From NCBI GenBank assembly GCA_903873415.1, contig CAIQOK010000010.1, positions 1-43,245 on the forward strand: 43,245 nucleotides of DNA. The letters run 5' to 3'. The stretch comes from an uncultured Verrucomicrobiota bacterium (lineage in GTDB: Bacteria > Verrucomicrobiota > Verrucomicrobiia > Limisphaerales > CAIQOK01). Positions within the stretch are counted from its first letter, which is position 1. The number at the start of each line of letters is the position of its first letter. This document shows, piece after piece, positions 20,733-23,692 of the stretch. Position numbers and translations under genes: made by a program. The notes below the pieces were generated by a model that saw only the letters and a program-made list of their open reading frames with translations, was not told where the DNA came from and did not search any database.

Positions 20733-23692
20733 ATGAAAAACAAAACCATCATCTTTCTTGCGCTGCTCGGCGTGCTTTCCTCCACCCCCATCGCCCAAGC
20801 GGCGCTGCCAGCGGCGCCTGGTTCGCCTACGGCCTGACGCCTAATCTGGCGATTGCCGGAATCATCCCCAATCCTAGTTTTGAGTCCGACACCTTCACGA
20901 CTTTCCCGGGTTACGCCAGTGTCAATGGCGGTGCCATAGCCGGATGGGTTCTCTCGGATCCCGCCAGAGTGGGGCTGAACCCGGCTGGCGGAAGTCCCTT
21001 TGCCGACAACGGCGCTATCCCGGAGGGGGCCAATGTTGCGTTCATTCAAAGCATGGATAATTCCTTGAATACCATCTCCACCACCCTGACCAATCTGACG
21101 CCCAATGGCATTTATGAGCTGAGCTTCCGCGCAAATCACCGATCTGGATACGGCACCACCCCCAATCCCATCTGGCAAATGAGCGTCCAAGCTGAAATTT
21201 CCTTCACAGCGTCGCCGGCGGTGGGCGGAAACAACGGTTACTATACAAACTTTGGGATTTTCACCGCCTCCCTAGGGACGACGGCAAACCTTGTTCTGGG
21301 CAATCAAACCGCCGATGACTCCACGATTTTGCTGGATGCCTTCTCCATCAATCAGGCCACCGGCGGTATTAATCTGGGCAACGGCTCTGCAAATCTGATC
21401 GCGACCAACCAGCTCACCGGGCTGACGCCGGCCACCACGTATTATTACCGCCTTGAGGCGACGAACAGCTCGGGACGCACTCTGGGAACGATTTTGAGTT
21501 TCACTACCGCGGTTGCCGTGCCGTCGGTAGTCACCCAACCCGCGACGAGTGTCAACCCCACCAACGCCATCCTCAACGGCATGGTGAGCCCGAACGGCGC
21601 GGCTACCCAAGTCTGGTTCAACTATGGCACCACCACCAACTACGGCAGCATGACGGCCACCGCCATTCTGCCAGCCTCGACGGCAACATTTTCGGTCAGT
21701 AATCTGGTTTTCAGCCTCACGCCCGGCAAAGTCTACCACTATCAGGTGGTGGCGGCCAATAACGCGGTGACGAATTTCGGTAGTGACCTGACCTTTTTCA
21801 GCTTGCTGGCAGCACCCCAGGTCGCGTTGCCCACCTTGGCCCTGATCGGACCGGCAAGGCTGACTAATGAGTGCCACAGCCCTTACAGCGAACAGGGTGC
21901 GGGCGGGACTAGTGCTCTGACCGCGCGTGCAGCGCACACTCTGGCGCTGCAGGTCGACGGAACAGTTGCCGCGTGGGGATATAATGGCAATGGGCAGTTG
22001 AACATACCCACGGGGTTGAGAAAAGTTGTGGCCCTTGCCGCTGGCCAGCTTCACAGTCTGGCTTTGAGAAGCGATGGGACGATCGCCGCGTGGGGAGATA
22101 ACACCTATGGCGAGTTGAACATTCCAACCGGGTTAAGCAACGTGGTGGCTATCGCCGGAGGTTATTTTCATAGTCTGGCTCTGCGGAACGACGGGACGGT
22201 CGCTGGGTGGGGATATAATGTCGATGGCGAAACGACTGTTCCCGCCGGCTTAAGCAACGTGGTGGCTGTCGCCGGAGGTCGAGCTCATAGTCTGGCTCTA
22301 AGAAGCGATGGGACGATCGCCGCGTGGGGAGATAATCTCGATGGCGAGTTGAACATTCCAACCGGGTTAAGCAACGTGGTGGCTATCGCCGGAGGTTATT
22401 TTCACAGTCTGGCTCTGCGGAACGACGGGACGGTCGCTGCGTGGGGAGATAATAGCTCTGGCCAGTTGAACATGCCAGCCGGGTTGAGCAACGTTGTGGC
22501 TATCGCGGGAGGCTATGCTTACAGTCTGGTGCTGCGGAGCGATGGGACGGTCGCTGCGTGGGGAGATAATGAATCTGGGCAGTTGAACATCCCCACCGGC
22601 TTGAGCAACGTGGTGGCGATCGCCGCAGGCGATTTTTACGGTCTGGCTCTTAGAGGCGATGGGACGCTCGCAGCGTGGGGAAATAACGCCCTAAGACAAT
22701 TGGACATTCCTGCCAGTATTTTTTTGCACTGCACAATCAGCGGCAGCGTGAACACCGACGCTCCAGGGATCTACGTGCTGAGCTACAGCGCCACCAATTT
22801 TCTGGGGGCCAGCACCATCACCAACACCCGAACCGTGGTAGTTGCAGACACCCTTCCGCCCGTAATCAGCCTGCTGGGACCAAGTTCGCTGACTACTCCG
22901 CTGAATGCGCCCTTCATCGATCCCGGCGCAACGGCGCTGGACGCCTGTGGCGGTAGTTTTGCCATAACCACCGACAGCAGCACGGTTAATGTGGCTCAGC
23001 CGGGCACCTATACCGTGACCTACCGTTCCACGGACAGCTATGGCAACACCGCCACCAACACCCGCACCGTGGTGGTGGCCACAGTGCCTGCTATCTCCGG
23101 TCTTGGCGCCTTGGTCATCTCCAGAAACGGAGTGACCGGTATTCGCACCGTCACCCTGGCCGCTCTGGTGAACCCGAATGGTCTGGATACGACTGTCAAT
23201 TTTCAATATGGCCTGAGCCTAGCTTATGGTGGAACAAACAATGCCTCAGCGTTGCCAGCCACCTTTAGTCCGAGCAACGAGACGTTCAGTTTGGACCTAA
23301 GTGCGGGCCTCACCTACCACTGGCGGCTAGTGGCGTCGAACAGTTTGGGCACCAGCATTTCGCCAGACCAGACCTTCAACACCGACACGCCTGGCGGCGG
23401 CCTCCCCGGCGACCTGAACGGGGACGGCGTGGTAAGCCAGTCCGAGCTGGAAGCGGTGTATGCCAACTACGTGACCAACAGCCCGTGGCTTTATATGACC
23501 AATGTGGCGGGCCTCGGCGGGACAAACGTGAGCTTCACGCTCCCCAACTCCGTCGCCGGCGCCTACACGGTCCAATACAGCACCAACCTGGTAAACTGGA
23601 TTCCTCTCGGCCCGGCTATACCACGCCACCTCTTCACTGACACCAACGCGCCGACCGTGCCTCAGCGTTATTACCGCTTGAGTTATCCGTGA
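20733..23692 (+). CDS. Secreted RCC1-propeller/Ig-like repeat protein, frameshifted after the signal peptide
   Basis: ATG 20733 encodes a clear Sec signal peptide (MKNKTIIFLALLGVLSSTPI, then AQAALP), but this frame stops at 20835. The frame of the mature protein is open from before 20810 (SGAWFAYGLTPN) to TAA-free 23692, so one base seems lost near 20807-20815. Order in the mature part: a lectin-like module with NPSFES near its start, two fibronectin III-like modules (LTGLTPATTYYYRLEATNSS), an Ig-like DUF5011/HYR-type domain split by seven RCC1 repeats, a second such Ig-like domain (PPVISLLGPSSLT), another FN3-like unit, a Ca-binding dockerin-like loop DLNGDGVVSQSEL, and the C-terminal YSTNLVNW...YYRLSYP region common in Verrucomicrobia. 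Probably extracellular; role unknown. A GTG at 20969 is the first available start in the long frame but falls inside a domain. Confidence 0.75.
21908..22709 (+). repeat. Seven tandem 117-bp (39-residue) RCC1 repeats
   Basis: Units begin at 21908, 22025, 22142, 22259, 22376, 22493 and 22610, each encoding a version of VVAIAGGYFHSLALRNDGTV-AAWGDN...GLSN. Seven units would close one RCC1 beta-propeller. The stretches 22071-22206 and 22305-22440, exactly two units (234 bp) apart, differ at about five positions by eye, which points to a recent duplication or gene conversion of a two-unit block. Confidence 0.9.

Follow-up and report, generated by a model that had tools for sequence, protein, structure and literature searches.

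Evidence for an RCC1 propeller nested within an Ig-like domain in Verrucomicrobiota

Can a whole RCC1 propeller be carried inside an Ig-like domain, and do the two parts of the interrupted domain then still fold as one? To our knowledge, the insertion of whole propellers into much smaller domains has rarely been documented. The question is raised by a gene in the window (the whole stretch of DNA that was analysed, 43,245 nt from an uncultured Verrucomicrobiota bacterium), where an earlier note had read the first half of a DUF5011 domain (presumably Bact_surface_Ig-like, PF16403), then seven RCC1 repeats, then the other half of the domain. This reading and its coordinates proved correct for the frame at nt 20969–23692. 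With little doubt, the RCC1 propeller is nested in a PF16403 Ig-like domain, and nesting is the explanation that best accounts for the evidence presented below.

The host gene and its domain layout

The features of the host gene are as follows (nt positions in the window).

20733–20837, + strand: signal-peptide-like start (ATG, 34 codons, stop), in a frame that differs from the main ORF
20969–23692, + strand: host gene, open frame of 907 aa from GTG; the frame is also open further upstream
21515–21802, + strand: FN3-like domain directly ahead of the nested unit (bounds approximate, by eye)
21830–21901, + strand: first part of the interrupted Ig-like domain, PTLALIGPARLTNECHSPYSEQGA (flank profile, hhalign E 4.1e-14)
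21914–22732, + strand: seven 39-residue RCC1 units, 7 x 117 nt (PF13540)
22730–22843, + strand: second part of the interrupted Ig-like domain, PF16403 positions 35–71 of 71 (31.7 bits)
22865–23077, + strand: intact PF16403 Ig-like domain, positions 1–71 of 71 (59.3 bits), serving as internal reference
23411–23458, + strand: EF-hand/dockerin-like calcium loop, GDLNGDGVVSQSELEAVYANYV (EF-hand_5 14.1 bits, cut-off 25.9; motif by eye)

RCC1_2 (PF13540) matched the window protein in seven stretches (E 1.4e-58, 117-nt spacing), all of them above the family cut-off in the genome search. The second Ig part, TISGSVNTDAPGIYVLSYSATNFLGASTITNTRTVVV, represents the last half of PF16403, and the final residues of RCC1 unit 7 extend into the Ig domain. 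The PF16403 cut-off of 27 bits is passed both by the second part alone (31.7) and by the joined flanks (35.2). The next Ig-like domain had been described as uninterrupted, in agreement with the full-length PF16403 match listed above. Pfam also returned two stretches each of fn3 and Pur_ac_phosph_N, with fn3 under its cut-off, and the EF-hand-like loop sits in the C-terminal region of the protein. Similarity of the main ORF to the L046 protein begins at about nt 20866 (NPSFE...), before the GTG at 20969, and a frameshift or assembly error is probable near nt 20800–20830, between the signal-peptide-like start and the main ORF. That start, upstream and in another frame, hints that the window protein may be secreted, and a surface location may be envisaged.

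Two flanks of one Ig-like domain

Flanks taken from 22 complete nested copies, plus a few from incomplete copies, were compared (hhalign) with an alignment of 25 intact Ig domains chosen by Pfam alone. The first flanks (23 nested copies) align to columns 1–25 of 70 with an E-value of 4.1e-14 and the second flanks (24 sequences) to columns 31–70 of 70 with an E-value of 1.5e-16, while no signal (E 0.23–0.59) came from the controls, in which first flanks were reversed, column-shuffled (five versions) or set against RCC1 units. This is the comparison relied upon, rather than an earlier one with 18 intact domains (E 2e-9 for columns 1–32 of 76 and 1.4e-12 for columns 30–76 of 76), which was partly circular because those domains had been picked with the joined-flank profile. 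In the window protein, the joined flanks score 35.2 bits by Pfam against 34.0 for the second part alone, a gain of 1.2 bits, and the first part on its own went undetected by Pfam in all three cases tried, the window among them; as the first part of the window protein is weak by Pfam, its identity rests on its relatives. Of five joined copies shown singly, four gave a Pfam match that spans the junction, and in one of these comparisons (L065) joining the flanks raised the PF16403 score from 43.8 to 57.1 bits. The joined flanks score as PF16403 in 21 of 22 nested copies, a figure of small weight, as the cut-off can be reached with the second part alone. Half-domain scores, using profiles derived from seven of the nested copies, separate nested from other arrays, and both flanks are retained in proteins whose neighbouring domains differ.

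Columns 26–30 of the intact alignment, where many intact domains carry a DxCxG motif, are absent from the nested flanks, which indicates that the propeller replaced a loop. The earlier description of an insertion into the Ig domain is thus upheld as regards nesting, but it was not a clean insertion. Among 100 intact Ig domains, which along with the tree described below stem from the joined-flank pick and may lean towards nested-like domains, the DxCxG cysteine was present in 48 and an ECH-type cysteine in 22, with both found in 21 of these 22, a pattern that suggests a disulfide in the intact domains. The first cysteine is kept in about half of the nested copies (a loose pattern finds it in 15 flanks out of 33, a set in which L265 is no nested copy), and the propeller occupies the place of the second.

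Single-sequence AlphaFold2 on 432 residues was useless (pLDDT 39), and an alignment of the 25 nested sequences only was used as input instead, with the model numbered along nt 21821–22849. The resulting model (mf8706ef0fa3d) has a mean pLDDT of 90.1 and a pTM of 0.79. Block means of pLDDT are 86–98 across the propeller (residues 31–300), and the Ig part is the weakest region, with block means of 56, 89 and 71 in its first part, 73, 94, 59, 79 and 91 in its second, and values under 50 at residues 1–3 and 327–330. Outside the propeller, strands are predicted at residues 13–17, 305–307, 316–325 and 332–342, with two-residue bridges at 7–8 and 27–28. The strand at 13–17 needs a partner and, beyond the propeller and the bridges, only strands of the second part are available, which makes one Ig domain likely. 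The Ig halves would then be in contact, and it is likely that the two parts co-fold as a single Ig domain.

The top PDB matches to the model (Foldseek) were BLIP-II (E 7.5e-29), then UVR8. VIA-align gave a Z of 36.1 and an rmsd of 2.0 over 278 residues for UVR8 (model 25–302 against chain 12–379), and a Z of 34.6 and an rmsd of 1.7 over 248 residues for BLIP-II; the absence of Ig-like folds from its PDB rows is uninformative, as one domain fills the list. RCC1-type proteins of viruses, along with some unnamed proteins, were among the matches of a viral structure search. The predicted ring is closed and UVR8-like, from which the two ends of the insert should lie close together, as the earlier note had anticipated.

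Recurrence and origin of the nested unit

RCC1 arrays within DUF5011 were found well beyond the window. The fetched loci hold 36 nested copies (a list of 38 rows, less L265 with one unit and L242 with two), and 31 of them, the window included, have both flanks. The unit number in these complete copies is seven in 30 and five in one (G085). Duplicate contigs were counted once (e.g., L100 = G213, L139 = G013). A profile of seven nested domains found at least 19 full-span places in at least 14 of 320 genomes of the window's order, or at least 15 genomes in ten families of the order when the five-unit G085 copy is added; hence, the nested propeller is unusual in frequency, as had been claimed, but it is not the oddity of a single protein. 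Among 387 genomes across the phylum, full-span matches occurred in at least three, namely that of the window, G459, from a different order of the same class, and G478, from a different class. The order and phylum scans gave best matches only, and since at most six (order) or five (phylum) candidates were scored per genome, these frequencies are lower bounds. A scan of named genomes confirmed at least 558 relatives, and among the best 80 taken the sources of nested copies were IMCC26134, Limisphaerales, subdivision 3, other Verrucomicrobia MAGs and a Kiritimatiellales MAG. Verrucomicrobia bacterium IMCC26134 (G459, CP011265.1), which is complete as a single 4.0-Mb contig, has nine nested copies in four genes, all nine with seven units. 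Chance is excluded by this recurrence (31 complete copies, 30 with seven units, nine in one complete genome), and the presence of the nested unit in related bacteria indicates that it is a building block passed on by inheritance and not a single chance event.

The four large genes of IMCC26134 (L257, L258, L259 and L260) carry their nine nested units among InlB-B-like repeats, and the L257 protein starts with three phage tail collar stretches (PF07484). The five units of the L051 copy (G085:C897) are much alike and come from a fragmented MAG; they represent either a collapsed repeat or a genuine five-unit ring. One gene of G063:C4 (L045, L016) has two nested copies, one of them broken by an in-frame TAA inside the RCC1 array. 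At G023:C17 (L266, L242), two RCC1-like units lead directly into the second part of a PF16403 domain, and stops interrupt the frame further upstream; this locus is probably a broken nested copy and was excluded from the counts. A search for other inserts in the same Ig loop, based on C-part-only PF16403 matches outside the known nested copies and read in eight fetched regions, revealed no inserted domain other than RCC1. Two of these regions (G034) open their contig piece with the C-part, in L269 along with the end of an RCC1 array and in L270 along with no more than its last residues; in two more (G040) and in that of G091, what lies directly upstream of the C-part is a contig end or else a frame that is dissimilar or filled with stops. 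The G060 match is a diverged, uninterrupted domain, and that of G033 has stops on either side.

Two other explanations of the architecture deserve consideration. A beads-on-a-string arrangement, in which a free RCC1 propeller lies between degenerate or unrelated segments that resemble Ig halves, would fit the failure of Pfam to detect the first part alone (three of three cases) and the small gain in the window (1.2 bits), and other propellers of the window genome do alternate with complete, separate Ig-like domains. We nevertheless consider it improbable, as the first-flank profile matches exactly the columns that are missing (E 4e-14, against 0.23–0.59 in controls), joined copies give Pfam matches over the junction (four of five, with the marked rise in L065), such flanks are absent from other arrays according to half-domain scores (profiles from seven nested copies), and both Ig parts are retained across differing protein contexts. 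That assembly or gene prediction misjoined a repeat-rich propeller into an Ig gene is barely credible. Some nested copies do lie at contig ends (G034) or contain a stop (G063), and many sources are fragmented MAGs, but the nine copies in the complete IMCC26134 genome exclude an assembly artefact for the architecture, and the same junctions are found in many genomes.

In a tree of the Ig parts, which is weak (62 columns) and includes two of the nine IMCC26134 copies, one clade (SH-aLRT 87) unites 18 of the 22 nested copies, the other four lie among intact domains, and three changes are required in all; the tree is compatible with a single origin or with several. The interrupted Ig domain of the window is nearest to nested ones from other genomes and not to its own intact neighbour. 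The neighbouring domains of the nested unit vary: in the window and L046 proteins Pfam detects fn3-type domains as well as intact PF16403 ones, in L114 it gives a weak fn3-like match and in L044 none (FN3-like segments by eye), while the IMCC26134 protein that was scanned has five Flg_new_2 (InlB-B-like) repeats with one fn3, the other three genes appearing alike by eye. Together, the differing neighbours and the tree placement suggest that the nested unit has been inherited and shuffled as a whole, and it may stem from one or a few old insertions. Mean pairwise identity between nested copies is 0.37 for the first Ig part, 0.42 for the second and 0.52 for the propeller. Within the window propeller, identities out of 39 residues are 17–25 for blade 1, 17–21 for blade 7 and 25–33 for inner pairs. 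The greater divergence of blades 1 and 7 would be expected if the inner blades had been re-amplified or homogenised and the end blades face the Ig domain, as may be the case here.

Two further contigs of the window genome carry RCC1 arrays in very large frames. On contig C113 (L009), a 9708-aa frame has five arrays of about seven units that alternate with complete Ig-like domains, in tandem and not nested, along with many further repeats. The 5629-aa frame on contig C81 (L010) has two arrays of longer units (144-nt spacing), adjoining repeats with ASALTYGQ-like motifs.

Ring closure and comparison with known systems

Each unit of the model has three strands (VVAIAAG, HSLALRS, TVAAWG) with tight turns between them, a long loop then leads on to the following unit, and for this reason a short RCC1 unit was taken as one blade. 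Leaving aside those at locus ends, all 24 nested arrays start and end with whole units, one stop-broken copy included, as do 31 of the 31 complete nested copies. Among 151 other arrays, 28 begin and end with a whole unit and 97 have a unit split between the two ends; in loci of the window's order the corresponding figures are 4 and 41 of 54, and two of the four whole arrays (L022, L008) have a half unit upstream that was missed by the cut-off, as reading the flanks revealed. Nested and other arrays alike stem from loci retrieved by nested or RCC1 queries, a non-random sample. Arrays at locus ends (22 free, 3 nested) were left out of these counts, and the Fisher p-values (2e-15, 3e-16) should not be taken at face value because related sequences were treated as independent. 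A typical free array starts on the third strand of a unit and ends on the first two, giving a blade common to both ends. Such Velcro closure with a shared blade is absent from the sequence phase of all 24 nested arrays, and judged by this phase the nested rings appear to be a natural non-Velcro set. They are still members of the RCC1 fold, since the same applies to 28 of 151 other arrays and, it seems, to UVR8.

Whole-unit phase is not unique to nested arrays, an idea ruled out by the same 28 free arrays, which include 14-unit examples from Paenibacillus. The latter (L095, L104, L107, L146) have their 14 whole units behind a signal-peptide-like start and before a segment of the type LxxLxLxEGxFxxxF, and probably form two rings.

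We propose that the nested unit is probably a two-domain module of a secreted multidomain protein, in which the Ig domain would act as pedestal and clasp. A seven-bladed propeller of the short-unit RCC1/BLIP-II type replaces the loop after the DPGA motif of the PF16403 domain. The chain would leave the half-built Ig domain, build the whole ring, come back to the point of departure between blades 7 and 1, and then complete the Ig domain, which would serve as a rigid pedestal and, from outside, as a clasp joining the ends of the ring, so doing the job of the blade to which both ends contribute in most free RCC1 arrays. The disc would be displayed on a string of FN3-like, Ig-like or InlB-B-like domains and, by analogy with other RCC1/BLIP-II propellers that bind proteins, most likely binds a protein or glycan. 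The constant number of seven units would be expected if closure of the ring were needed to bring its ends together.

The clasp role itself is offered tentatively. It is not strictly needed, given that UVR8, judging from the ends of its alignment, seems to start and end in the same phase without an Ig domain, free whole-unit arrays exist in Paenibacillus and elsewhere, and the designed WRAP-T protein, according to the accessible text of PMC8458387, is as stable in its non-Velcro version as in one Velcro form. The same facts favour a neutral form of nesting, in which the Ig domain is a mere spacer without mechanical role: a UVR8-like ring is stable without it, free whole-unit arrays are found, and non-Velcro WRAP-T is stable. 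Against this rather doubtful though real possibility stands the constancy of seven units and of phase in nested copies, maintained despite the divergence of the Ig parts and the propeller (identities 0.37, 0.42 and 0.52). A pedestal that also clasps the ring continues to be our preferred reading. It is quite possible, if somewhat less likely than not, that such an 'Ig-clasped propeller' is a distinct, inheritable domain type of the Verrucomicrobiota and Kiritimatiellales, in which an Ig domain replaced the Velcro blade, closing the ring from outside with a second fold, and in which evolution moved the combined unit, rather than just the propeller, among surface proteins.

Propeller closure has so far been studied with designed permutants (PMC8458387, as far as its accessible text describes). 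There, the middle (2-2) Velcro is said to be rare in nature, with RCC1-like domains named as exceptions, and among the versions of the designed Pizza propeller those without Velcro closure were the least stable (41.8 and 45.3 versus 52.5 °C). If the clasp is real, the same bacteria would supply natural matched rings for testing closure, nested ones without and free ones with a shared blade, and the nested unit would be a ready scaffold that holds a binding disc on a rigid stalk.

No description of RCC1 inside an Ig-like domain was found in the accessible open-licence PMC literature. The highly repetitive RCC1/BLIPII propellers of PMC9218822 are likewise bacterial rings with much-alike blades; in the accessible main text of that paper the words 'inserted' and 'Ig-like' are absent, and no description of nesting was found. 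The host domain is a PF16403 member in both its parts (Pfam, hhalign). The usual members of this family are uninterrupted over 71 positions, whereas here the DxCxG loop after DPGA has given way to about 270 residues. UVR8 (4dnv_A, 6xzl) is an RCC1-type ring whose ends, judging from the limits of the aligned ranges, seem to coincide in ring position with those of the nested one. It is a plant photoreceptor with longer units and is not known to be inserted in another domain. The BLIP-II ring is seven-bladed. BLIP-II (1jtd_B, 3qhy_B) was the best PDB match by sequence (E 7e-53) and shares short RCC1-type units with the nested propeller, but it is free-standing, without an Ig domain, and in its best alignments the end points fall at other places of the ring (model 3–279 or 47–303). 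According to the accessible text of PMC9218822, BLIP-II is a secreted binder, and RCC1 and BLIP-II propellers interact with or bind proteins. As a beta-lactamase inhibitor, BLIP-II has only its fold and repeats in common with the nested unit.
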